Positions 29,958 through 50,922 of a stretch of DNA of 64,000 nt are shown here, one piece after another (within the stretch, counting starts at the first letter, position 1; the number at the start of each line of letters is the position of its first letter). Under the pieces are notes generated by a model that worked only from the letters and a program-made list of their open reading frames with translations, was not told where the DNA came from and ran no database searches. The stretch comes from Leifsonia aquatica H1aii. Lineage in GTDB: Bacteria; Actinomycetota; Actinomycetes; Actinomycetales; Microbacteriaceae. The stretch lies in the NCBI RefSeq assembly GCF_000633535.1, contig NZ_AYMR01000007.1:62001-126000 (forward strand), written 5' to 3'. Both the position numbers and the translations under genes were made by a program.

Positions 29958-32900
29958 TCAGGCTCGGCGAGTGCGTCGAATCAGGACCAGGGCGCCGCAC
30001 GCGATCAGAAGGACCGCGAGACCGCCGAGGAGTGCAGCCCCACCGGAGGTGGAGCCGGTGTCGGCGAGACCGCTGCCGGTGCTCGTCGAGCCGGTGGTGC
30101 CGGTTCCGGGATCGACCGGCAGCGGCACGTCGTAGCGGTAGCCGCCGGGGAGCACGCCGTTGCCGCACTCGCCGTTCCCGACGACGGTGACATCCACGGT
30201 CCCGGTGCCCGCCGGGGCGACGGCCGTGATGGTCGCGTCGTCCACCACCGTGAACGAGGTCGCCGGGGTCGTGCCGAAGAGCACTCCGGTCGCTCCGGTG
30301 AAGCAGCCGCCCGTGATCGTCACGGTCGTCCCGCCGGCCTGCGGCCCGTGGCCCGGGTCGACGCCGTCGATGGTGGTGCCCGGGTCGTAGGTGAACGTCG
30401 CGGCCGGCGACGGTCCGACCGGGGTCGTCACCACGACCGGGACCGCGCCGGCGGGGTGCGCCGGGGTCGTGACGGTGATGGTGGTGTCGTTCACCACGGT
30501 GAAGGGCACATCCACCCCGCCGATCGTCACGCTCGTGGTCCCGGTGAAGCCGGAGCCCGAGATCGTGACGACGGTTCCTCCGAGGAACGGCCCGTGATCC
30601 GGGTCGAGTCCGGTGATGACGGGGGCGTTCGGGACCGGGTCGAAGGTGAAGTCGCCCGGCTGCGAGTCGCCGTTCGGGTGCTGGACGATCACGTCGACAC
30701 CGCCGGGCGTGTGCGCGGGGGTGGTGACGGTGATGGTGGTGTCGTTCACCACGGTGAACCCGGTGCCCGGGGTGCCGCCGAACGTGACACCCGTGGCGCC
30801 GGTGAACCCGGTGCCGGTGATCGTCACGGCCGTGCCGCCGGTCTGCGGCCCGTTGGCCGGGGCCACCGAGGTGATGGCCGGGACCGGCAGGAAGGTGAAG
30901 TCGCCCGGCTGGGAGTCGCCGTTCGGGTGCTGCACGACCACCTCGACGCCGCCCGGCGCGTGCGCCGGCGTGGTCACCGTGATCGTCGTCGCGTTCACCA
31001 CCGTGAACGCCGTACCCGCGGTGCCGCCGAAGGTGACGCCGGTCGCTCCGGTGAATCCGGTGCCGGTGATCGTCACCGCGGTGCCGCCGGTCTCCGGACC
31101 GCTCGTGGGAGCGAGGGAGGTGATGGCCGGCACGGCGAGGAAGGTGAAGTCACCGGGCTGCGAGTCGCCGTTCGGGTGCTGCACGATCACGTCGACACCG
31201 CCCGGCGCGTGCGCCGGGGTGGTCACCGTGATGGCGGTGTCGTTCACCACGGTGAACGACGTCCCGGCGGTGCCGCCGAAGGTGACGCCGGTGGCTCCGG
31301 TGAACCCGGTGCCCGTGATGGTGACGGCGGTGCCGCCGGTCTCCGGTCCGTCGGCGGGGGCCACCGAGGTGATGGCCGGCACCGCGTCGAACGTGAAGTC
31401 ACCCGGCTCCGAGGGGCCGGCCGGCGTGGTGACGACCACGTCGACGCCGCCCGGCGCGTGCGCCGGGGTGGTGGCGGTGATAGTGGTGTCGTTCACGACG
31501 GTCACGTTCGTGGCGGGAGTGCCGCCGAAGGTGACCCCGGTCGCTCCGGTGAACCCGGTGCCGGTGATGGTGACGGCCGTGCCGCCGGTCTCCGGTCCGT
31601 TGCCCGGCGCGACTCCCGTGATCACGGGCAGGGGCACGTAGGTGAACGTGGCCGGGGCCGAGTCGCCGACCGGGGCCTGCACGACCACGTCGACCGGTCC
31701 GGCCGCGTGGGCGGGGCTGGCGACGGTGATCGTGGTGTCGTTCACGACGCTGAAGCCGACCCCGGGGGTGCCGTCGAAGGTCACGCCCGTGGCGCCGGTG
31801 AAGCCGGTGCCGGTGATCGTGACGGGTGTGCCGCCGGTCACCGGTCCGCTGCTCGGCGCGAGGGAGCCGATCGCCGGGAGGGCCACGAAGGTGAACGTCC
31901 CCGGTGCGGAGTTCCCGTTCGGGCTCTGCACGACCACGTCCACGGCCCCGGGCGCGTGGGCCGGAGTCGTGACGGTGATGGTGGTGTCGTTCACGACGGT
32001 GAAGGCCGTGCCGGCGGTGCCGCCGAAGGTGACGCCGGTGGCTCCGGTGAACCCGGTTCCGGTGACGGTGACGGCGGTGCCGCCCGTCTCGGGCCCGCTG
32101 GTCGGGGCGAGCGAGGTGATCGTCGCGGCGGCCAGGTAGGTGAAGTCACCCGGCTCGGACGATCCTCCGGGCGTCGTCACGACGACTCCCACCGTTCCGG
32201 GCACGTGGGCCGGGCTCGTCGCGGTGATGGTGGTGTCGTTCACGACGGTCACGTTCGTCGCGGGGACGCCGTCGAAGGTGACCCCGGTCGCTCCGGTGAA
32301 GCCGGTGCCGCTGATGGTGACCGGCGTGCCGCCGGCCGCCGGACCGCTGCCCGGATCCACTCCGGTGATCACCGGCTGCGGCACGTAGGTGAAGGTGGCC
32401 GGGGCCGAGACGCCGACCGGGGTCTGCACCACCACATCGACCGGTCCGGCCGCGTGGGCAGGACTGATGGCGGTGATCGTGGTGTCGTTCAGGACGGTGA
32501 AGCCGGCGGCCGGAGCCCCGTCGAAGGTCACGCTCGTGGTCCCGGTGAAGCCGGTGCCGGTGATCGTGACGGTCGTCCCGCCGGCGACCGGTCCGCTGTC
32601 CGGTGCGAGGGAGGTGATCGCCGGGAGGGCGAGGAACGTGAACGTGCCGGGTCCGGACGCTCCGTTCGGGCTCTGCACGATCACATCGGTCGCGCCCGGG
32701 GCGTGCGCCGGGCTGGTGACGGTGATCGTCGTGTCGTTCACCACGGTGAACGCGGTGCCCGCGGTCCCGTCGAACGTCACCCCGGTGGCGCCGGTGAAGC
32801 CGGTGCCGGTGATGGCGACGACGGTGCCGCCCGTCTCCGGCCCGCTCGTGGGTGCGAGGGAGAGGATGGCCGGCGCCGGCAGGAAGGTGAAGTCACCGGG

Positions 32901-35900
32901 CTGCGAGTCGCCGTTGGGGTGCTGCACGATCACGTCGACCGCGCCGGGGACGTGCGCCGGCGTGGTGACGGTGATGGTGGTGTCGTTCACCACGGTGAAC
33001 GCCGTGCCGGCGGTGCCGCCGAAGGTGACGCCGGTGGCTCCGGTGAACCCGGTGCCGGTGACGGTGACGGCCGTGCCGCCCGCCGCCGGTCCGCTGGTCG
33101 GCGTCAGCGAGCTGATCGCCGGCAGCTGCAGGAACGTGAAGTCGCCTGGCTGGGAGTCGCCGTTGGGGTGCTGCACGATCACGTCCACCGCTCCCGGTGC
33201 GTGCGCCGGGGTGGTGACGGTGATGGTGGTGTCGTTCACGACGGTGAAGGCCGTGCCGGCGTCTCCGCCGAAGGTGACACCGGTCGCACCGGTGAACCCG
33301 GTGCCGCTGATGGTGACGGCGGTGCCGCCGGTCTCCGGTCCGCTGGTCGGGGTGAGCGAGCTGATCGCCGGGACCTGCAGGAACGTGAAGTCGCCTGGCT
33401 GGGATTCGCCGTTGGGGTGCTGCACGATCACGTCCACGGCCCCGGGCGCGTGCGCCGGGGTGGTGACGGTGATGGTGGTGTCGTTCACCACGGTGAAGGC
33501 CGTGCCGGCGTCCCCGCCGAAGGTGACACCGGTCGCACCGGTGAAGTTGGTCCCGGTGATGGTGACGGCGGTGCCGCCGGTCTCCGGTCCGCTGGTCGGG
33601 GCGACCGAGCTGATCGTCGGGATCGGGTCGAAGGTGAAGGCGCCGGGAGCGGAGTCGCCGTCCGGGCTCTGCACGACGACCGCCACCGGACCGGGCGCGT
33701 GCGCCGGGGTGGTGACCGTGATCGTGTTGGCGTCCACGACCGTGAACGCGGTGCCGGCCGTGCCGTCGAAGGTGACACCGGTCGAGCCCGTGAAGCCGCT
33801 GCCGGTGATGGTCACCGCCGTGCCGCCGGTCTCCGGTCCGTGGTCAGGGGCGATGGTACCGATCGCCGGTGGTCCGACCACCGGGTCGAAGGTGAAGTCG
33901 CCCGGCGCCGAGGGGCCGGCCGGCGTCGTCACGACGACATCGACCGTGCCCGGCGCGTGACCGGGGCTCGTCACCGTGATCGTCGTGTCGTTCACGACCG
34001 TGACGCCGGCACCCGGGGTGCCGCCGAAGGTGACCCCCGTGGCTCCGGTGAACCCGCTGCCGGTGATCGTCACCGCGGTGCCGCCGGTCTCCGGTCCGTT
34101 GCCCGGGGTGACGCCGGTGATGACCGGAAGCGGGAGGTAGGTGAACGTGGCCGGGGCGGAGTTCCCGACCGGGGCCTGCACGACGACGTCGACCGGTCCC
34201 GCCGCGTGGGCGGGGCTGGCGACCGTGATGGTGGTGTCGTTCGTGACGCTGAATCCCACGCCCGCGATCCCGTCGAACGTCACTCCGGTGGCCCCGGTGA
34301 AGCCGGTGCCGGTGATCGTGACGGGGGTGCCGCCGGTGACCGGTCCGCTGGGCGGCGTCAGGGAGCTGATCGCCGGGAGGGCGACGAAGGTGAAGGTGCC
34401 CGGTCCCGAGTTCCCGTTCGGGCTCTGGACCACCACGTTCGTCGCGCCGGGCGCGTGCGCCGGCGTGGTCACGGTGATCGTGGTGTCGTTGACGACCGTG
34501 AACCCGGTGCCGGCGGTGCCGCCGAAGGTGACGCCCGTGGCTCCGGTGAAGCCGGTGCCGGTGATGGTGACGGCGGTGCCGCCGGTCTCGGGTCCGCTGG
34601 TCGGGGTGAGGGAGCCGATGGTCGGGGCGGCCAGGAAGGTGAAGGTGCCGGGCCCCGAGTTCCCGTTCGGGCCCTGCACCACCACGTTCGTCGCGCCCGG
34701 GGCGTGCGCCGGGGTGGTGACCGTGATGGTCGTGTCGTTCACGACGGTGAAGTTCGTTCCGGCGGTGCCGCCGAACGTGACGCCCGTGGTGCCGGTGAAG
34801 CCGGAACCCGTGATCGTCACCGGGGTCCCGCCGGTCGCCGGTCCGCTGGTCGGGGTGAGCGAGCCGAGGACCGGTGGGACGGCGAGCGCGTTCGGCCCGA
34901 CGGAGGCGGACGCGACGTTCAGGACGAGGGCCTGCGTTCCGGGCAGGACGGACGCCCGCAGAGCGGTCTCGGTGAAGACGCCGCCCGCGGTCGCCTGGTT
35001 GTTGACGGTGAGCGCTACGACCTGACTGAGGACCGGGTTCAGCGCCGGAACGAGCGTGTTCGCCACCGGGGCGAGGACCGCCGGGCCCAGAGCGGTGATC
35101 GCGGTGCCGATCCCGTTCAGCGGGGTGAGCAGGGCCGAGAGCACGGTGGTGAGCGGGATGCCGACGGCGAGACCCGCGACGGTGATGCCGCTGGTGTTGC
35201 CGGCGAGCAGCTGGCCGATCGTCTCGTTGACCGTGATCACGGGCAGGCCGAGCACGCTCGCCGAGAGGTTGACCGTGAGCGCGTTGGTGGTGGCCGTGAG
35301 CACGTTCTGGACCTGGGTGACCAGGCCGCCGAGGATCCCGGTGATCCGGTTGCCGATCTCGCTGATGACCGCGGCACTCAGGATGTTGGTGTTGGGAGCC
35401 TGGCTCTCCAGGCCGGTGATCTGGGAGAGGTCGACCGTGACCGTGCCGGTGCCCAGGTTGATGGTGACGCCGGGGTAGGCGGCGTTGGTGATATCGCCCG
35501 TCAGCAGCGGGGCGACCGCCCCCTGGAGGTTGGAGGCGGTGACGGTCGCCGTCGTGTTGAGCACGCCGGGGATGTTCAGGATGCTCAGAGCGCTCGCCAG
35601 CGTCCCGGTCGGTCCGGCGAGGCCGTTGACCAGGTTCTGCACCGTGGTCACCTGGCCGTTGATCGCGCTGGTCAGCCCGGCGACGGTGGCGCTGTGGAAG
35701 GAGAGGCCCGCTCCGGCGATGGAGTACGAGCCGGCCGGTGCACCGGGGGCGGTCTGCGCGGCCCGCGCTCCGGTGACGCCGACCTGCAGGTCGAGCTGGG
35801 CGAGCTCGTTCAGGGTCGCGGTCGGGAGGCCGAGGGAGGTGACGGCCTGCGCGAGGTTCACGTGCAACGGTCCGGGGGCGATCCCGGGCTTGGGGGTGAT

Positions 35901-36362
35901 CCCGGTGCCGATGTCACCGGAGGACGAGGTGAGACCGGACGCGCCGACCGACGATCCGTTCTGCAGGGCCGAGGCGTACTGCGAGACCACGCCGGCTCCG
36001 CCGAGGTCGAGTGGGATCTGGATGCCGCCGGGTGCCGCGATGTTCACGACTCCCAGGACGCCGACGTTCAGGTTGTTCGCGTTGGTCTGGTCGGCCGATC
36101 CGGTGGAGGCGGCCGTCTCGCCGCCGAGCGAGGCGACCAGGGCCGCGTTCAGTCCGATCAGCGAACCGCTGAGATACTGGCCGGTCGCGTTGGAGGTGTC
36201 TCCCGGGGCCGCTTGAGCGGGCAACGCCCACAGTCCTGCGCCCGCGAGGGTCAGCGCGATGGTGGCGCCGGCCGCCGCGGAACCGAGCAGGCCGCGCCGT
36301 CCTCCCCTTCTCTTCTCGTGCGCTCTCCGCGCTCCAGTGCCGACGTCGAGACCCGTTACCAC
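29958..36362 (-). CDS. Giant LADTG-anchored surface protein: choice-of-anchor G domain plus 19 TIG repeats
   Basis: A 2,134-residue wall protein. Signal peptide (about 22-51, L-P-A-Q-A-A), an N-terminal choice-of-anchor-G-like domain rich in L-x-V and N (to about 500), then 19 IPT/TIG Ig-like repeats of about 80 residues, each with P-x-S-G-P-x-x-G-G and V-x-N-D-T-T-I-T-V. It ends L-A-D-T-G, a hydrophobic helix and R-R-T-R-R, a class-E sortase tail. DNA repeats are near-identical between copies, so the region may vary in length and is easy to misassemble. A GTG start follows a ggggg ribosome-like run. Likely an adhesin, first gene of the SipW operon. Confidence 0.88.
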   Translation of the reverse strand: MVTGLDVGTGARRAHEKRRGGRRGLLGSAAAGATIALTLAGAGLWALPAQAAPGDTSNATGQYLSGSLIGLNAALVASLGGETAASTGSADQTNANNLNVGVLGVVNIAAPGGIQIPLDLGGAGVVSQYASALQNGSSVGASGLTSSSGDIGTGITPKPGIAPGPLHVNLAQAVTSLGLPTATLNELAQLDLQVGVTGARAAQTAPGAPAGSYSIAGAGLSFHSATVAGLTSAINGQVTTVQNLVNGLAGPTGTLASALSILNIPGVLNTTATVTASNLQGAVAPLLTGDITNAAYPGVTINLGTGTVTVDLSQITGLESQAPNTNILSAAVISEIGNRITGILGGLVTQVQNVLTATTNALTVNLSASVLGLPVITVNETIGQLLAGNTSGITVAGLAVGIPLTTVLSALLTPLNGIGTAITALGPAVLAPVANTLVPALNPVLSQVVALTVNNQATAGGVFTETALRASVLPGTQALVLNVASASVGPNALAVPPVLGSLTPTSGPATGGTPVTITGSGFTGTTGVTFGGTAGTNFTVVNDTTITVTTPAHAPGATNVVVQGPNGNSGPGTFTFLAAPTIGSLTPTSGPETGGTAVTITGTGFTGATGVTFGGTAGTGFTVVNDTTITVTTPAHAPGATNVVVQSPNGNSGPGTFTFVALPAISSLTPPSGPVTGGTPVTITGTGFTGATGVTFDGIAGVGFSVTNDTTITVASPAHAAGPVDVVVQAPVGNSAPATFTYLPLPVITGVTPGNGPETGGTAVTITGSGFTGATGVTFGGTPGAGVTVVNDTTITVTSPGHAPGTVDVVVTTPAGPSAPGDFTFDPVVGPPAIGTIAPDHGPETGGTAVTITGSGFTGSTGVTFDGTAGTAFTVVDANTITVTTPAHAPGPVAVVVQSPDGDSAPGAFTFDPIPTISSVAPTSGPETGGTAVTITGTNFTGATGVTFGGDAGTAFTVVNDTTITVTTPAHAPGAVDVIVQHPNGESQPGDFTFLQVPAISSLTPTSGPETGGTAVTISGTGFTGATGVTFGGDAGTAFTVVNDTTITVTTPAHAPGAVDVIVQHPNGDSQPGDFTFLQLPAISSLTPTSGPAAGGTAVTVTGTGFTGATGVTFGGTAGTAFTVVNDTTITVTTPAHVPGAVDVIVQHPNGDSQPGDFTFLPAPAILSLAPTSGPETGGTVVAITGTGFTGATGVTFDGTAGTAFTVVNDTTITVTSPAHAPGATDVIVQSPNGASGPGTFTFLALPAITSLAPDSGPVAGGTTVTITGTGFTGTTSVTFDGAPAAGFTVLNDTTITAISPAHAAGPVDVVVQTPVGVSAPATFTYVPQPVITGVDPGSGPAAGGTPVTISGTGFTGATGVTFDGVPATNVTVVNDTTITATSPAHVPGTVGVVVTTPGGSSEPGDFTYLAAATITSLAPTSGPETGGTAVTVTGTGFTGATGVTFGGTAGTAFTVVNDTTITVTTPAHAPGAVDVVVQSPNGNSAPGTFTFVALPAIGSLAPSSGPVTGGTPVTITGTGFTGATGVTFDGTPGVGFSVVNDTTITVASPAHAAGPVDVVVQAPVGDSAPATFTYVPLPVITGVAPGNGPETGGTAVTITGTGFTGATGVTFGGTPATNVTVVNDTTITATTPAHAPGGVDVVVTTPAGPSEPGDFTFDAVPAITSVAPADGPETGGTAVTITGTGFTGATGVTFGGTAGTSFTVVNDTAITVTTPAHAPGGVDVIVQHPNGDSQPGDFTFLAVPAITSLAPTSGPETGGTAVTITGTGFTGATGVTFGGTAGTAFTVVNATTITVTTPAHAPGGVEVVVQHPNGDSQPGDFTFLPVPAITSVAPANGPQTGGTAVTITGTGFTGATGVTFGGTPGTGFTVVNDTTITVTTPAHTPGGVDVIVQHPNGDSQPGDFTFDPVPNAPVITGLDPDHGPFLGGTVVTISGSGFTGTTSVTIGGVDVPFTVVNDTTITVTTPAHPAGAVPVVVTTPVGPSPAATFTYDPGTTIDGVDPGHGPQAGGTTVTITGGCFTGATGVLFGTTPATSFTVVDDATITAVAPAGTGTVDVTVVGNGECGNGVLPGGYRYDVPLPVDPGTGTTGSTSTGSGLADTGSTSGGAALLGGLAVLLIACGALVLIRRTRRA
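30100..34880 (-). repeat. 19-unit TIG repeat array inside the giant surface gene
   Basis: About 4.8 kb of tandem ~240-base units. Units fall into classes by their ends: A (S-P-N-G-N/D), B (Q-A-P-V-G-N-S/D, A-A-G-P-V-D), C (T-T-P-A/G) and H (Q-H-P-N-G). The order contains three A-B-C triplets and two H-H-H triplets, evidence of block duplication rather than unit-by-unit growth. Boundaries approximate. Confidence 0.8.
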
Positions 36363-40437: not shown

Positions 40438-41175
40438 ATGCACCAGAAACCCAGGCGACACGTGCGCCTCCTCGCCGCGGCGGCGGCCGCGCTCGCCGGA
40501 CTCGGCCTCGCGGCCGGAGCCGCGGCTCCGGCGCTCGCCGCCCCCACCGTCGCCGCCGTCTCGGTCTCCGCTCCCACGACCGCGACCGCGGGCGACACGT
40601 TCGACGTGACGGTGACGCTCACCGGCGCGGTGGACGTGTTCGGCTACGAAGCCGAGCTCGCGTTCGATCCGTCCCTCGTCTCCTATGTCGACGGCAGCGC
40701 GGTCGTGACCGCGGGCGGCTTCGACGCGGTCCGCACCGCGAGCGGGACGGTCGGACTCGTCTACACCAGGCTCGGCACCTCCCCGGCGCTGTCGGGCGAC
40801 ATCGCCTACACCCTGACGTTCACGGCGACCGCCGCGGGCTCCACGGCGTTCACGGTCAGCTCGCTCTCGCTGGTCGACCCGGCCTCCGCCGTCGTCGCCT
40901 CGACGAACGCGGCGACGAGCCCCGCGATCACCATCGCACCGGCCGCCGTCGGCTCGCCGACCCCGACGCCGAGCCCGACGTCGTCCACCGGAGGCTCGGG
41001 TGACGCCGGCACCGGCACCAGCGGGACCGGCGGCTCCTCCGCGATCGACGGCGGCCTCGCCTCCACCGGCTCCACCGTCGCCCCGTACGTGATCGGTGCG
41101 CTCGCCCTGCTCATCGCGGGCGCCGCCGCCGGACTGTTCACCGTCCGCCGCCGCCGCGCGGGAGACGCCCGATGA
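40438..41175 (+). CDS. Cell-wall-anchored cohesin-domain protein (LASTG)
   Basis: A 245-residue exported protein. Signal peptide (A-P-A-L-A-A, cleaved near residue 35), one cohesin domain (about 38-165: T-A-T-A-G-D-T-F-D-V-T-V-T-L, F-G-Y-E-A-E-L-A-F-D-P-S-L-V, L-T-F-T-A-T-A-A-G-S-T), a Pro/Thr/Ser/Gly linker, then L-A-S-T-G, a hydrophobic helix and R-R-R-R, a class-E sortase tail. It would be fixed to peptidoglycan and present one cohesin. The next gene, which overlaps by 4 bases, encodes a dockerin. aggaagg lies 10 bases before the ATG. The X2/cohesin fold is shared by other bacterial Ig-like domains, so binding is a prediction. Confidence 0.85.
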   Translation: MHQKPRRHVRLLAAAAAALAGLGLAAGAAAPALAAPTVAAVSVSAPTTATAGDTFDVTVTLTGAVDVFGYEAELAFDPSLVSYVDGSAVVTAGGFDAVRTASGTVGLVYTRLGTSPALSGDIAYTLTFTATAAGSTAFTVSSLSLVDPASAVVASTNAATSPAITIAPAAVGSPTPTPSPTSSTGGSGDAGTGTSGTGGSSAIDGGLASTGSTVAPYVIGALALLIAGAAAGLFTVRRRRAGDAR

Positions 41176-43067
41176 CCGCCCGCCGCTCGACCCCGAGGAG
41201 CACCACCGCCATGCAGCCCCGCACGAAGGCCCGTCGCATCGCGGCGGCGACCGGTACCGCCGCGGCGCTCGCCGCCCTCGTCGCCACCGGCGTCGTCGTC
41301 GCCCCGGCCGCAAGCGCAGAACCGGCGCCGGCCGCCGCCACGGGTGTGTTCCTCGCGCCGTTCTACACGGCCCACGACCTGACGGGTGACGACCAGGTCA
41401 CGACCGCCGATCTCGGCGTGCTCGCGAAGCACCTCGGGGACGACTCCTCCTCGCCCGACTGGGCCGGCACGAAGAAGGCCGATGTCGACGGGGACGGCAC
41501 CATCACCGTCCGCGACCTCGTCGCCCTGTCGCAGCGGATGATCTACGACGACGGCCCCTTCCAGCTGGTGGAGGCCTCCGCCCTCGACATGCAGGCGGCG
41601 ATGAACGCCGGGGTGACGACGTCGGTGAAGATCACGCAGGAGTACCTGGACCGGATCGCCGCGCTCGACCGCACGGTCGTCGACCCCGCCACCGGCGGTC
41701 GCGCGCTCAACTCGATCATCTCGAAGAACCCGCAGGCGCTCACCATCGCCGCCGCGGCCGACGCGACGCGTGCGCAGCGGGGGATGACGAGCATGCTCCT
41801 CGGCGTCCCGATCGCGGTGAAGGACAACTACGACACGGTCGACATGCCGACCACCGGCGGTTGCGGCTGCTGGGACGGCAACCAGACCAGCGACGACGCC
41901 ACGATGGTGAAGGGCCTGCGTGCCGCGGGCGCCGTCATCCTCGCCAAGGCCAGCCTGGACGAGTTCGCGTACGGCTTCGTCTCGGAGTTCTCGTCGTTCC
42001 AGGACGCCGGGAAGACCCTCCTGGTCGCCAGCCCGCTCAACACGACGAAGACCGCGGGTGGTTCCAGCGGTGGCACGGGCGCCGCGATCGCGGCCAACCT
42101 CGCCGGCATCGGCTTCGGCACCGACACGGGCGGCTCCATCCGCGTCCCGTCGACGTACAACTCGCTGGTGGGCATCCGCCCGACGGTCGGCCTGACCAGC
42201 CGCGACGGCATCATCCCGCTCGCGCTCAGCCAGGACACCGGCGGCCCGATCGCCCGCAGCGTCACCGACGCCGCGGTCGCGCTCGACGCCGTCACCGGGG
42301 TCGACGCCGCCGACCCGATCACCGCCGAGCAGGCCGGCAAGGTGCCCGCCTCCTACACCGCCGCCCTCGACCCCGCGGCGCTGAAGGGCAAGCGGATCGG
42401 CATCGTCACCTCGATGCTCGGCAGCAACGCCACCGTGACGCGGCTCTGGGCAAGCGCGAAGGCGACGCTGGAGGCGCAGGGCGCGACCGTCGTCGAGATC
42501 ACCACGGTGCCGACCGCGTTCACCGCGACCCTCAACGAGGGCAGTGGGAGCACGAACGAGTTCAAGCACGACCTGGACATCTACATCCAGAACCACCTCG
42601 CCCCGACCGTGACCGCCCGCTCGATCGCCGACATCCTGGCGACCGGCCGCAACGTCACGACCCGCAACAGCATCTACACGTCGCGCAACAACGTGACGGA
42701 GGCGCAGTACCAGGCGTGGGCGGGTCCGGCCGGTTCGCACACGGCGGCGATCGCCACCGGGCAGGCCACGGTCACCCGGCTCATGGACGACAACACGCTG
42801 GACTCGCTGGTGTACCCGAGCGGTTCGCCCTACAGCACCATCAGCACGAACATGCGCCTCAGCCCCAACACGGGCATGCCGGCCATCACCGTGCCGATGG
42901 GGCAGGCCATCGCCTCCGACGGCACCAATCCGGTGGTCGGCGCCAACGTCAACCTCGAGTTCCTCGGGCGCGACTACGACGAGAGCCGCATCATCGGTCT
43001 GGCCTACGCCTTCGAGCAGGCGACCCACGCCCGCGCGACGGCCCCGCTCTACGGCCCCCTGAAGTAA
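41172..43067 (+). CDS. Secreted dockerin-amidase
   Basis: A 631-residue exported enzyme. Signal peptide ends A-A-S-A at residue 49. A dockerin type-I-like module (about 66-125) has two calcium loops: D69-T71-D73-Q75-D80 and D104-D106-D108-T110-D115, each followed by L-x-x-L-x-x-x-L/M. The rest is an amidase-signature hydrolase with Lys217 (A-V-K-D-N), Ser298/299 (G-G-S-S-G-G-T-G) and nucleophile Ser322 (T-D-T-G-G-S-I-R-V-P-S). The substrate amide is unknown; gatA-type and peptide amidases share this fold. Start overlaps the cohesin gene (ATGA); an ATG at 41211 with gaggag upstream is a second option. Confidence 0.9.
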   Translation: MTARRSTPRSTTAMQPRTKARRIAAATGTAAALAALVATGVVVAPAASAEPAPAAATGVFLAPFYTAHDLTGDDQVTTADLGVLAKHLGDDSSSPDWAGTKKADVDGDGTITVRDLVALSQRMIYDDGPFQLVEASALDMQAAMNAGVTTSVKITQEYLDRIAALDRTVVDPATGGRALNSIISKNPQALTIAAAADATRAQRGMTSMLLGVPIAVKDNYDTVDMPTTGGCGCWDGNQTSDDATMVKGLRAAGAVILAKASLDEFAYGFVSEFSSFQDAGKTLLVASPLNTTKTAGGSSGGTGAAIAANLAGIGFGTDTGGSIRVPSTYNSLVGIRPTVGLTSRDGIIPLALSQDTGGPIARSVTDAAVALDAVTGVDAADPITAEQAGKVPASYTAALDPAALKGKRIGIVTSMLGSNATVTRLWASAKATLEAQGATVVEITTVPTAFTATLNEGSGSTNEFKHDLDIYIQNHLAPTVTARSIADILATGRNVTTRNSIYTSRNNVTEAQYQAWAGPAGSHTAAIATGQATVTRLMDDNTLDSLVYPSGSPYSTISTNMRLSPNTGMPAITVPMGQAIASDGTNPVVGANVNLEFLGRDYDESRIIGLAYAFEQATHARATAPLYGPLK

Positions 43068-46128: not shown

Positions 46129-49100
46129 ATGTCAATCAGGAATGGCAGGGTGTGGCGCGCCGCCACGGCTGCGATCGTGGGGGCCGGGCTCGCAGCCGGC
46201 GCCCTCGTCGCGACGCCGGCGTTCGCCAGCACCGACGGCACGGGTGTCGTCATCAACGAGGCGTACCTCTCCGGCGGCAGCGCCGGCGCGGCCTACACGA
46301 ACAAGTTCGTGGAGCTGTACAACCCGGGCGACGCCGCCGTCAGCCTCAGCGGCTGGAGCGTGCAGTACCGCTCCGCGACCAGCACCGGCGCCGCGAACGG
46401 CGTCGTGCCGCTGACCGGCTCCATCGCCGCCAGGGGCTACTACCTCGTCGCGGGAGGCTCGAACGGCACCACCGGCGCCGCCCTCCCGACGCCCGACGTC
46501 GCCAGCAACGCGCTGAACCCCAGCGGCACCACCGGCACCCTGATCCTCTCCAACGCCTCCTCCGCACTCACCCTCCCGGCGGGCTCCGTCACGGGCGCGT
46601 CCGGCGTGGTCGACCTGCTCGGCTACGGCACCTCGAACACGTTCGAGAAGGCCAAGGCTCCCGCGCCCTCCGCCAACACCGACGTCAAGTCGTTGAACCG
46701 CACCGCGTTCACCGACACCGACGACAACAGCGCCGACTTCACCCTGAGCGCGACCATCACGCCGCAGAACTCGGCGACCACCCCGGGAGGCGGCACGACC
46801 GATCCCGGCGAGGGCACCGACCCCGGCACCGGGACCGACCCCGGGCCTCCGGGCGATGCGATCGCCATCTCCGAGATCCAGGGAACCGGTGACACCAGCC
46901 CGAAGGCGGGCCAGACCGTCACCACCGTCGGCGTCGTCACCGCGCAGTACGCGACCGGCGGCTTCAACGGGTTCTACATCCAGACCCCCGGCACGGGCGG
47001 CGCCGTCGACCTCGCCACCCACACCGCCTCCGACGCGGTCTTCGTCTACGGCTCCTCCTACGCCGCCTCGGTCGCCGCCGGCGATTACGTGCAGGTGACC
47101 GGAGCCGTCAGCGAGTTCAACGGCCTCACCGAGATCACCGCCTCGAAGGTCGACAAGCTCGACGCGAGCACCGTCACCGCCCCGACCCCCGCCACGGTCG
47201 GCCTCCCGGCCACCGACGCGCAGCGCGAGAGCCTCGAGGGCATGCTGATCGCCCCGCAGGGCGCCTTCACCGTCACCGACACGTACTCGACGAACCAGTA
47301 CGGCGAGATCGGCCTGGCCGCCGGCGAGACCGCGCTGCTGCAGCCGACCGACGTCGCACGCCCCGGCACCGCGGAGTACACCGCCGCCGTCGCCGACGTG
47401 AAGGCCCGCGGCGTCATCCTCGACGACGGAGCCTCCACCAACTTCCTCAGCGCGGCCAACAAGTCCAAGCCGTTGCCGTACCTGTCGCTGACCGCCCCGG
47501 TCCGCGTCGGCGCCCCGGTCACGTTCACGAAGCCGGTGGTCCTCGACTACCGCAACAACGCGTGGAAGTTCCAGCCGACCGCCGAGCTGACCCCGGCGAA
47601 CGCCGCCACCGTCCAGCCGGCCACCTTCGCCAATACCCGCACCGCGGCACCGGAGAACGTGGGCGGCGACCTCAAGCTCGCCACCTTCAACGTGCTGAAT
47701 TACTTCACCACGACGGGCGACCAGCTGAGCGGCTGCACCTTCTACACCGACCGCGACGGCAACAAGATCACGGTCAACAGCGGATGCGACGCCCGCGGCG
47801 CCGCCGACGCGACCAACCTCAAGCGCCAGCAGGACAAGATCGTCGCCGCGATCAACGGACTGACCGCCGACGTCGTCTCCCTCGAGGAGATCGAGAACTC
47901 GGCACGCTTCGGCCAGGACCGCGACGATGCGCTGAAGACCCTCGTCGCCGCGCTCAACGCCGCGGCGGGCAGCGAGGTCTGGGCGTACGTGAAGTCGCCG
48001 TCGACCGTGCCGTCCTCCGAAGACGTCATCCGCACCGCCTTCATCTACAAGAAGGCCGTCGCCGAGCCCGTCGGCGCCTCCCGCATCCTGGACGACGCGG
48101 CGTTCTCGAACGCCCGCCAGCCGCTCGCGCAGGCCTTCAAGAAGGTCGGGGCGAAGGACGCGAACGCCTTCATCGCCATCGTGAACCACTTCAAGTCGAA
48201 GGGGTCCGGCACGGGCGCCGACGCGGACCAGGGTGACGGCCAGGGCGCCTCCAACGCCTCCCGCGTCAAGCAGGCGAAGGCGCTGGTCGCGTTCGCCGAC
48301 GAGCGCAAGGCCACCCTCGGCCTCGACAAGGTACTCCTGATCGGCGACTTCAACGCGTACCTGCAGGAGGACCCGATCAGGGTCCTCACCGACGCCGGCT
48401 ACGTGGACCAGGTCAGCACCCGCACGAGCAAGCACACGTACTCGTTCGGCGGCACGGTCGGCTCCCTCGACCACGTGTTCGCGTCTCCTGCGGCCAACGC
48501 CGCGATCACGGGCGCGGACGTGTGGAACATCAACTCGGGCGAGTCCATCGCACTGGAGTACAGCCGGTACAACTACAACGTCACGAACTTCTACGCCGCC
48601 GACCCGTACCGGTCGAGCGACCACGACCCGATCGTGGTGGGCCTCGGCCTCGCCGCGAAGCCGGTGACGCTGAACCTGCTGAACATCAACGACTTCCACG
48701 GGCGCATCGACGCCAACACCGTGAAGTTCGCCGGCACGATCGAGAAGCTCCGCGCGGAGGGCGGCGAGGGCAACACCCTCTTCCTCTCCGACGGTGACAA
48801 CATCGGCGCCTCCCTGTTCGCCTCGGCCTCGGCCGGCGACATCCCGACCATCGACGTGCTGAACGCGCTCGGCCTCAAGACCAGCGCGGTGGGCAACCAC
48901 GAGTTCGACAAGGGCTTCTCCGACCTGACCGGCCGGGTGAAGGACGCGGCGGACTTCAGCTACCTCGGCGCCAACGTCTACAAGAAGGGCACCAAGGACC
49001 CGGCTCTGCCCGAGTACGCGGTGTTCGACGTGAACGGCATCAAGGTCGGCGTCATCGGCGCCGTCACGCAGGAGACCCCGACCCTCGTCTCGCCGGGCGG

Positions 49101-50922
49101 CATCTCGACGCTCGACTTCGGCGACCCGGTGGAGGCCGTCAACCGCGTGGCGAACCAGCTCACCGACGGTGACGCCTCCAACGGCGAGGCCGACGTGATC
49201 GTGGCCGAGTACCACGAGGGTGCCGGAGCGGGAACGCCGGACGGTGCGACGCTCGAGCAGGAGGTCGCCGCCGGCGGTGCGTTCGCCGACATCGTCACCA
49301 AGACGAGCGCGAAGGTCTCGGCGATCTTCACGGGCCACACGCACAAGCAGTACGCGTGGGACGCCCCGGTCCCGGGTGTCGAGGGCGCGACGCGTCCCGT
49401 CGTCCAGACCGGCAGCTACGGCGAGAACATCGGCCAGGTCACGCTGACCGTCGACCCAGAGACCGACACGGTCACCGCCCACACCCTCCGCAACGTCGCC
49501 CGCACCACGGACGCCGACGCGGACCTGGTGGCGGCGTACCCGCGGGTCGCGCAGGTCAAGACGATCGTCGACAAGGCGCTCGCCGACGCGGCGGTCATCG
49601 GCAACCAGAAGATCGGCTCCGTCACGAAGGACATCACGACGGCGTACGCCGGCGGCCTCCGCGACGACCGCGCGAGCGAATCCACGCTGGGCAACCTCGT
49701 CGCCGACTCGCTGCTGTCGACCCTCTCGCCCGCGGAACTCGGCGGCGCCGAGATCGGCGTGGTGAACCCGGGCGGCCTGCGCGCCGACCTGCTGTACGGC
49801 ACCGACGGCTCCATCACCTACGCGCAGGCGAACGCCGTGCTGCCGTTCGTGAACAACCTCTGGACGACGACCCTCACGGGCGCGCAGTTCAAGCAGGCGC
49901 TGGAGCAGCAGTGGCAGACGAACGCCGACGGCACCGTGCCGAGCCGGCCGTTCCTCAACCTCGGCCTGTCGAAGAACGTCAGCTACACGTACGACGCCTC
50001 TCGAGCCGCCGGCGACCGCGTCACGAGCATCCTCGTGAACGGCGCGCCGATCGACCCGGCGAAGTCGTACCGGATCGGCTCGTTCTCGTTCCTGATCCAG
50101 GGCGGTGACAACTTCCGCGCCTTCGCGGCCGGGAAGGACACCAAGGACTCCGGTCTCATCGACCGGGACGCCTGGATCAGCTACCTGCAGAACACCAGCC
50201 CGGTGTCGCCGAGCTTCGCCCGCCGCGGCGTGGCCGTCAGCGGCGCGCCGACCGACACCCTGCAGCGCGGCCAGCAGGTCTCCTTCACCGTCTCGAAGCT
50301 GAACCTGACCTCCCTCGGCAGCCCGGCGAACACCTCGCTGAAGCTCTCGTGGACGGGCAGCGGTACCGACCTGGGCAGCGTCCCGGTCGACGCCAACGGC
50401 AGCGCGACCGTCACGTTCACCGTCCCGGCCGACGCCGCGGGCGCCGGCACCCTGGTGCTGACCGCACCGGAGTCGGGCACCACCGTCACGGTGGCGCTGA
50501 AGGTCGCGGACAAGCCGGTGGAGAACCCGAAGCCGACGAAGGACCCGAAGGCCGCCAAGGAGTCGGCTCTCACGAAGGCGCTCTTCGGCACGATCACCCT
50601 CGACAAGACCAGCTACAAAGCGGGCGACCCGGTCCAGGTGACCGTGGACAAGAAGCTCGCCGGCCAGTGGGTCTCCGTCTGGGTGTACTCCTCGCCGAAG
50701 AACATCTCGAGCGGCTGGGTGCAGGTGCCGGCGAACGGCGTCCTGAAGCTGACCCTGCCGACCAAGCTCGACAAGGGCGACCACAAGCTCTCCGTGCAGA
50801 ACGCGTCGAACGACGTGGTCGGCTGGAGCGCCTTCCAGGTGAAGTCCTCCGGCGGCGGTTGGTGGGACTGGATCTGCGACCTCGCCTGGCTGTGGAACTG
50901 GTTCCACAAGCTGTTCGGCTGA
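46129..50922 (+). CDS. Secreted multidomain endonuclease / 5'-nucleotidase
   Basis: A 1,597-residue exported enzyme: signal peptide (P-A-F-A-S, about 33), lamin-tail domain (about 36-170), Gly/Thr/Pro linker, OB-fold (about 245-345), an ExeM/NucH-type nuclease core (about 518-845; L-A-T-F-N-V-L-N-Y, G-D-F-N-A-Y, S-S-D-H-D-P), then a UshA-like 5'-nucleotidase (metal core about 847-1140, N-I-N-D-F-H-G-R, S-D-G-D-N-I-G, G-N-H-E-F-D; substrate domain about 1165-1365, N-P-G-G-L-R-A-D). It ends in Ig-like domains and a Trp-rich tail. It would degrade DNA and release phosphate from nucleotides. agggagaa precedes the ATG. Confidence 0.93.
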   Translation: MSIRNGRVWRAATAAIVGAGLAAGALVATPAFASTDGTGVVINEAYLSGGSAGAAYTNKFVELYNPGDAAVSLSGWSVQYRSATSTGAANGVVPLTGSIAARGYYLVAGGSNGTTGAALPTPDVASNALNPSGTTGTLILSNASSALTLPAGSVTGASGVVDLLGYGTSNTFEKAKAPAPSANTDVKSLNRTAFTDTDDNSADFTLSATITPQNSATTPGGGTTDPGEGTDPGTGTDPGPPGDAIAISEIQGTGDTSPKAGQTVTTVGVVTAQYATGGFNGFYIQTPGTGGAVDLATHTASDAVFVYGSSYAASVAAGDYVQVTGAVSEFNGLTEITASKVDKLDASTVTAPTPATVGLPATDAQRESLEGMLIAPQGAFTVTDTYSTNQYGEIGLAAGETALLQPTDVARPGTAEYTAAVADVKARGVILDDGASTNFLSAANKSKPLPYLSLTAPVRVGAPVTFTKPVVLDYRNNAWKFQPTAELTPANAATVQPATFANTRTAAPENVGGDLKLATFNVLNYFTTTGDQLSGCTFYTDRDGNKITVNSGCDARGAADATNLKRQQDKIVAAINGLTADVVSLEEIENSARFGQDRDDALKTLVAALNAAAGSEVWAYVKSPSTVPSSEDVIRTAFIYKKAVAEPVGASRILDDAAFSNARQPLAQAFKKVGAKDANAFIAIVNHFKSKGSGTGADADQGDGQGASNASRVKQAKALVAFADERKATLGLDKVLLIGDFNAYLQEDPIRVLTDAGYVDQVSTRTSKHTYSFGGTVGSLDHVFASPAANAAITGADVWNINSGESIALEYSRYNYNVTNFYAADPYRSSDHDPIVVGLGLAAKPVTLNLLNINDFHGRIDANTVKFAGTIEKLRAEGGEGNTLFLSDGDNIGASLFASASAGDIPTIDVLNALGLKTSAVGNHEFDKGFSDLTGRVKDAADFSYLGANVYKKGTKDPALPEYAVFDVNGIKVGVIGAVTQETPTLVSPGGISTLDFGDPVEAVNRVANQLTDGDASNGEADVIVAEYHEGAGAGTPDGATLEQEVAAGGAFADIVTKTSAKVSAIFTGHTHKQYAWDAPVPGVEGATRPVVQTGSYGENIGQVTLTVDPETDTVTAHTLRNVARTTDADADLVAAYPRVAQVKTIVDKALADAAVIGNQKIGSVTKDITTAYAGGLRDDRASESTLGNLVADSLLSTLSPAELGGAEIGVVNPGGLRADLLYGTDGSITYAQANAVLPFVNNLWTTTLTGAQFKQALEQQWQTNADGTVPSRPFLNLGLSKNVSYTYDASRAAGDRVTSILVNGAPIDPAKSYRIGSFSFLIQGGDNFRAFAAGKDTKDSGLIDRDAWISYLQNTSPVSPSFARRGVAVSGAPTDTLQRGQQVSFTVSKLNLTSLGSPANTSLKLSWTGSGTDLGSVPVDANGSATVTFTVPADAAGAGTLVLTAPESGTTVTVALKVADKPVENPKPTKDPKAAKESALTKALFGTITLDKTSYKAGDPVQVTVDKKLAGQWVSVWVYSSPKNISSGWVQVPANGVLKLTLPTKLDKGDHKLSVQNASNDVVGWSAFQVKSSGGGWWDWICDLAWLWNWFHKLFG

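Follow-up and report, generated by a model that had tools for sequence, protein, structure and literature searches.

A conserved pair of genes for a cohesin surface protein and a dockerin-bearing amidase in Leifsonia aquatica H1aii and other actinobacteria, probably forming a two-component surface complex

Non-cellulosomal cohesin- and dockerin-like modules were reportedly surveyed by Peer et al. 2009; single cohesins and dockerins outside cellulosomes are of the same general kind as the modules described here. The non-cellulosomal complexes of C. perfringens resemble the gene pair reported below in having a single cohesin per protein and in standing outside cellulosomes (Adams et al. 2008, as cited in passages of PMC12997984). 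They differ from it in number and in setting. Passages of PMC12997984 mention five cohesin proteins in one strain, whereas the pair has one cohesin, encoded in one operon with one amidase, and the solved C. perfringens cohesins come, by their entry titles, from glycoside hydrolases, whereas the cohesin described here sits in a short anchor protein. A further likeness is to the LPxTG-tailed anchoring scaffoldins of cellulosomes and mucinolysomes, in which, as would be the case here, a sortase-tailed cohesin protein fixes dockerin proteins to the wall (parts of PMC12997984 and PMC11557425).

The pair lies in the window, the 64,000-nucleotide stretch of contig NZ_AYMR01000007.1 that was analysed and that forms part of the 4.58-Mb genome of L. 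aquatica H1aii. The earlier note had claimed a cohesin gene and a dockerin-amidase gene that overlap by 4 bases, and this description held: both open reading frames are present on the + strand, at 40438–41175 (245 aa) and 41172–43067 (631 aa), together with the overlap ATGA (41172–41175) and all three Pfam domains. The first gene encodes a cohesin surface protein with a likely signal peptide (40438–40539, +; ending by eye at ALA, the putative cleavage site), one cohesin domain (residues 41–166; 40558–40935, +), a low-complexity linker rich in Gly, Ser, Thr and Pro, and a LASTG sorting motif followed by a hydrophobic stretch and an arginine-rich end (41056–41172, +). In the product of the second gene, a likely signal peptide region (41172–41318, +; assigned by eye) precedes a dockerin whose two calcium loops are of the EF-hand type (residues 68–122; 41373–41537, +) and an amidase-signature catalytic domain (residues 178–550; 41703–42821, +); translation of this gene could instead begin at another in-frame ATG, at 41211. 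A siderophore-interacting protein gene lies upstream of the pair, and a small gene of no clear family, followed by DUF805, TetR, and LysR genes, lies downstream. Two large proteins are also encoded in the window: a 2134-aa frame at 29958–36362 on the − strand, with many similar repeats (by eye IPT/TIG-like) and an LADTG sorting-like tail, and a 1597-aa protein at 46129–50922 on the + strand, with lamin-tail, exo/endonuclease-phosphatase, metallophosphatase, and 5′-nucleotidase domains.

The window domain is a cohesin by profile and, as modelled, by its beta-sandwich fold. It scores 37.9 bits against PF00963 (Pfam, cut-off 24.1), a family that 69 of 76 homologous domains match at E 0.01. An AlphaFold2 model based on an alignment of 76 sequences has a mean pLDDT of 93.7 (residues 31–165) and a pTM of 0.87. 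Foldseek searches with this model returned C. perfringens cohesin modules first and cellulosomal cohesins next, the first non-cohesin being YcnI at rank 30. In VIA-align, the best matches are the C. perfringens cohesins 2vo8 (Z 16.1, 124 residues, 1.9 A), 2jh2, and 2w1n (Z 15.8–16.1 for the three); the classical cohesin 1ohz_A reaches Z 14.2, and ranks 1–42 are all cohesin entries (Z 12.1–16.1), with the first non-cohesin at rank 43 (Z 12.1). Because cohesins head both lists, a plain Ig-like domain, the finding that the earlier note had said would undo its proposal, is rejected. By sequence, phmmer finds no cohesin in the PDB with the cohesin protein, its two matches being other proteins. This last result would suit a reading in which the two proteins serve the same process with no contact: the cohesin-like domain would be an Ig-like adhesin of the cell surface, and the dockerin would do no more than cap the amidase, stabilised by calcium. 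We consider that reading very unlikely, in part because cohesins outrank other Ig-like folds among the structural matches; distributional evidence against it is given below.

The N-terminal domain of the second protein has the type I dockerin profile and two calcium-loop motifs, and calcium binding is predicted. PF00404 (Dockerin_1) scores 33.7 bits (Pfam, cut-off 22.9), and all 25 members of alignment A1 match it at E 0.01. After removal of duplicates and short domains, 119 aligned rows left 99 distinct pairs, in which the calcium-ligand positions are kept in 98 of 99 cases for loop 1 and in 99 of 99 for loop 2. Type I dockerins have two near-identical faces and a dual binding mode. The two loops of the window dockerin differ in sequence, which suggests that it has one binding face only. 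In the loci read, the dockerin directly precedes the amidase domain.

The genome of L. aquatica H1aii contains one cohesin and one dockerin above cut-off, and they lie side by side. The search for additional dockerin genes that the earlier note had proposed yielded, besides this one, a partial 19.8-bit match on contig C6, which is below cut-off, covers profile positions 34–51 only, and was rejected as a second dockerin. It amounts to one EF-hand-like loop, not a full dockerin, in a 1667-aa frame (L081) that has its own LAATG sorting-like tail. These counts bear on the idea that the pair belongs to, or is left over from, a multi-enzyme complex resembling a cellulosome. The module families are indeed those of cellulosomes, and Leifsonia shinshuensis (G360) and a Herbiconiux genome (G321) each have one further dockerin match (E 0.001). 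However, the own genome has that single cohesin and that single dockerin, and by Pfam the cohesin protein has neither a carbohydrate-binding module nor another cohesin. With no multi-cohesin scaffoldin, no suite of dockerin enzymes, and a cargo of the amidase-signature type rather than a carbohydrate-active one, a cellulosome was rejected as extremely improbable.

Judged by its sequence, the window enzyme belongs to the amidase signature family. Its catalytic domain scores 255.8 bits against PF01425 (Pfam, residues 178–550), and the nearest solved protein found by phmmer is peptide amidase 1m21 (E 1.4e-73, residues 129–622), whose match starts only after the dockerin. We take 1m21 to be the Stenotrophomonas maltophilia peptide amidase that acts on C-terminal amides. 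K217, S298, and S322, encoded within 41820–42137 (+), are each invariant in 99 of the 99 distinct pairs and presumably correspond to the Lys/Ser/Ser triad of amidase-signature enzymes, a catalytic role assigned by analogy; C231 and C233 are kept in 95 of 99 pairs each. Amidase model NF006006 (PRK08137) gives 351.2 bits against a cut-off of 534, and the enzyme is thus related to that group without being a member. Three more amidase matches elsewhere in the own genome stop short of the dockerin part. As for substrate, peptide amides or amidated peptidoglycan stem peptides would be our guess.

Homologous loci were collected from a search for relatives, of which the best 80 of 401 confirmed were kept, a set that leans to close relatives, and from genomes of the family. 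Among those best 80 of 401, carriers were found in Leifsonia, Curtobacterium, Mycetocola, Microbacterium, Agreia, Herbiconiux, Frigoribacterium, Cellulosimicrobium, Isoptericola, Cellulomonas, Oerskovia, Georgenia, Oceanitalea, Demequina, Nocardioides, and a few other genera. Removal of 11 duplicates gave 96 distinct loci, with L063, L075, and L079–L081, which have no dockerin-amidase gene of this kind, left out; L063 is the cohesin half of a pair in genome G155 and lies at a contig end. The cohesin gene comes first at 83 of the 96 loci and the amidase gene at four, five loci have both in one frame, and four are without a cohesin, all of them at a contig edge with at most 451 bp of contig upstream. 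The pair's conservation in relatives, which the earlier note had proposed to examine, is therefore seen at 92 of 96 distinct loci. The exact 4-bp overlap recurs at 76 of the 83 cohesin-first loci, with start codons chosen by script.

A few records stand apart. In Microbacterium sp. Marseille-Q6648 (L159), one of the short-domain rows removed above, the second dockerin loop is lost and the anchor region of the cohesin protein reads frame-shifted into the amidase frame. This could be a decaying pair or a sequence error, and although the locus was scored as fused in the 96-locus count, the frame-shifted reading is why it was not taken as a true fusion. Locus L149 comes from a record named Sphaerisporangium cinnabarinum, which may be misnamed; by eye its pair resembles those of Cellulosimicrobium. 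L. shinshuensis (L079, genome G360) and Herbiconiux (L080, genome G321) each have a frame of about 1,250 aa, far from the pair, with a dockerin-like stretch in mid-protein that scores 26.0 bits in L079 (above cut-off) and 19.1 in L080 (below), the latter protein having its own LAATG tail. Each of these stretches may be a second partner for the cohesin, or may bind calcium independently of it.

The cohesin protein of the window has a sorting-like tail, with the LASTG motif, a hydrophobic stretch, and an arginine-rich end, and the sortase family is found above cut-off at two places in the own genome. An association of LAXTG motifs with class E sortases is noted in part of PMC5148588. The NCBIfam sorting-signal models fall just below their cut-offs (NF058582 25.4 of 27 bits; TIGR01167 13.9 of 15.9), which counts against a wall dock. 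An LxxTG-like motif with a hydrophobic tail occurs at 81 of the 83 cohesin-first loci, the variants including LASTG (22), LATTG (12), and LAWTG (7), plus others. The two loci with no scored tail are L060, where a hydrophobic tail is present and the motif is missing, and L113 (Demequina). In the latter (D. sediminis), the cohesin is split over two frames, with a sorting tail in the second, owing to a frameshift or a sequencing error. Versions from Nocardioides and Isoptericola have no sorting tail: the two-gene Nocardioides cohesin proteins L146 and L160 end in a long tail-less C-terminal region, with a weak Ig-like match in L146, and the Isoptericola cohesin protein L099 stops 8 residues past the cohesin match.

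The two genes occur together across genomes. In a family sample of 398 genomes searched with Pfam at E 0.001, a cohesin was found in 21, a dockerin in 26, and both in 19. Among the seven dockerin-only genomes, six carry, directly upstream, a sorting-tailed cohesin-like gene that Pfam missed; in the seventh (G264), the match is a short frame where a contig ends, not an amidase of this kind. G021 and G340, the two cohesin-only genomes, do carry a dockerin-amidase, and in G155 the halves of the pair lie at the ends of two contigs. Pfam searches and locus reading together place the pair in at least 27 family genomes, a lower bound because Pfam missed both halves in G328, which later profiles found. 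By Pfam, 3 of 10 listed genomes of the own genus have both parts and 7 of 10 have neither.

The order was sampled evenly, and the resulting 386 genomes were searched with profile A1 (dockerin plus amidase start) and profile A2 (cohesin). With A1, 19 dockerin-bearing genes scored at least 183 bits, and the other matches listed reached at most 77 bits and lacked most or all of the dockerin part. A2 found cohesins in 19 of the 386 genomes, identical to the 19 with a dockerin-amidase; for unrelated draws this would have a probability of about 1e-32, a figure that is too small because the genomes are related. All 17 of the 17 dockerin-bearing amidases compared have a cohesin next to them or in the same frame, whereas the roughly 12-kb stretches around 23 dockerin-less amidases contain none (Fisher 1e-11); these 23 were hand-picked from many listed, mostly among the best-scoring. 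Seventeen of the 19 dockerin-bearing loci were fetched for this comparison, the other two being already in the set, and at least six of the 17 are the same records as loci from the search for relatives, so that the samples are not additive. The cohesin thus tracks the dockerin and not the amidase, contrary to what an adhesin and an amidase cap with no contact would predict.

The cohesin and dockerin-amidase genes are a conserved, patchily distributed two-gene unit. Chance neighbourhood was rejected, as the pair recurs across the order with identical genome sets for both parts. Among frames of at least 120 aa outside the pair, no conserved third gene was found; the most widely shared of these frames matched 11 other loci of 81. 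In a phylum-wide sample of 396 genomes searched at E 1e-20, the own genome was the only hit, and the system therefore seems uncommon outside the order, its presence in Nocardioides notwithstanding. Nor is it limited to Microbacteriaceae, the family that the earlier note had named; Nocardioides and Isoptericola, for example, have the pair as well. Plasmid-borne spread was also rejected: the cohesin protein has no plasmid match, and in the 15 of 52 records shown, plasmid matches to the amidase start no earlier than query residue 95.

Partners joined in a single chain are a classic sign of joint function, and five single-chain forms were taken as true. In L070, a cohesin and a sorting-like tail are followed by a second signal-like stretch and the dockerin-amidase. 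Microbacterium sp. 2FI (L119) has the order cohesin-dockerin-amidase without an anchor, the Nocardioides forms L155 and L161 the order dockerin-amidase-cohesin without a sorting tail, and L215 the order dockerin-amidase-cohesin followed by an LAVTG tail. The calcium-ligand positions of both dockerin loops are kept in all five. Dockerin Pfam scores of the fused forms (cut-off 22.9) are 28.3 for L155, 26.5 for L215, 18.4 for L161, 13.9 for L119, and none for L070. Four two-gene controls score between 22.1 and 28.5 bits, two of them just below cut-off (22.1 and 22.6). That three of five fused dockerins are below cut-off would fit a possible relaxation after fusion.

Taken with the domain identities, the matching presence and absence, and the fusions, the most probable reading is that the wall-fixed cohesin docks the amidase through its dockerin in a dedicated two-component complex. 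The cohesin protein would be secreted, and a sortase would then attach it to peptidoglycan through LASTG, as the motif and the sortase genes suggest. The amidase, made from the overlapping second gene, would be secreted as well, and its calcium-loaded dockerin would hold it on the single cohesin, an expectation based on the domain families and the conserved pairing. A peptide-amidase-like enzyme would in this way be kept at the cell wall surface, one enzyme per anchor.

Two further kinds of computation had little to say on docking. A model of the natural cohesin-linker-dockerin chain of L119 (alignment A5; alignments A3 and A4, which placed halves of cohesin rows on the dockerin, were not used) has a pTM of 0.62, a good cohesin, and a dockerin with pLDDT of about 76–82 at residues 191–230 and lower at the ends. 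This pTM gives no confident docking, a result that would also suit proteins with no contact; the fold list for the model covers the cohesin half only and again has cohesins ahead of other Ig-like folds. In a mirror-tree comparison, the partial correlation between cohesin and dockerin is 0.29 (permutation maximum 0.14) and that between cohesin and amidase domain 0.33. The cohesin tree is thus no closer to that of the dockerin than to that of the amidase domain, and the comparison is uninformative, with no dockerin-specific coevolution.

The earlier note had proposed a minimal, non-cellulosomal display of an amidase on the wall, and this remains the best reading in view of the real domains, the dedicated and conserved pair, and the usual sorting-like tail. 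Wall display is not the whole story, however, because the tail is missing in Nocardioides and Isoptericola and covalent fusions exist. Docking may do more than tether, because the anchor is not universal and the fusions keep their dockerin calcium ligands even though tethering is redundant in a single chain. Cohesin-dockerin binding could instead fold, activate, or dimerise the amidase, or link fused chains head to tail, with the anchor as a lineage-specific extra. The tail-less lineages, the ligands kept in the fusions, and the position of the dockerin directly before the amidase domain all speak for such a role, but the near-universal sorting-like tails of cohesin-first loci, one of which even the fused L215 retains, and the low scores of fused dockerins make it unlikely. 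A further reading, rather unlikely, is that the pair is a calcium-switched surface module of two parts that is complete in itself, owes nothing to cellulosomes, and has spread through Actinomycetales and Nocardioides. Docking in such a module would control the amidase (its activity, its orientation, or the assembly of chains with one another) and not merely hold it. Such control would be the reason why single-chain versions keep a two-loop dockerin beside a complete cohesin.

Among the matches listed in titles and abstract starts of open-licence literature, a scope that most subscription journals fall outside, there was no such actinobacterial pair. Passages of PMC12915301, the one paper found with cohesin, dockerin, amidase, and Microbacteriaceae together, treat cohesin and dockerin in general terms only, and the main text of PMC11557425, a survey of cellulosome bacteria, does not contain "actinobacteria" or "actinomycet". 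The Cellulosimicrobium cellulans F16 genome is reported without cohesin or dockerin in passages of PMC4562250; other Cellulosimicrobium genomes carry the pair, which agrees with patchy presence or with weak detection.

If docking on the wall is true, the pair would represent one-to-one, operon-encoded wall placement of a single enzyme that is no glycosidase and belongs to no cellulosome. The 99 distinct matched pairs are a resource on specificity, on calcium dependence, and on the passage from a non-covalent bond to covalent fusion, and they provide a lead on function for proteins otherwise named by their domains alone in genome annotation. The carriers include some soil and plant-associated actinobacteria, in which cellulosome parts have apparently been reused for a quite different enzyme. 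Cellulosome and mucinolysome systems have many dockerin proteins, mostly carbohydrate-active and some of them peptidases (passages of PMC12997984), whereas this locus has one cohesin and one dockerin enzyme. The pair is a new form of non-cellulosomal cohesin-dockerin pairing.
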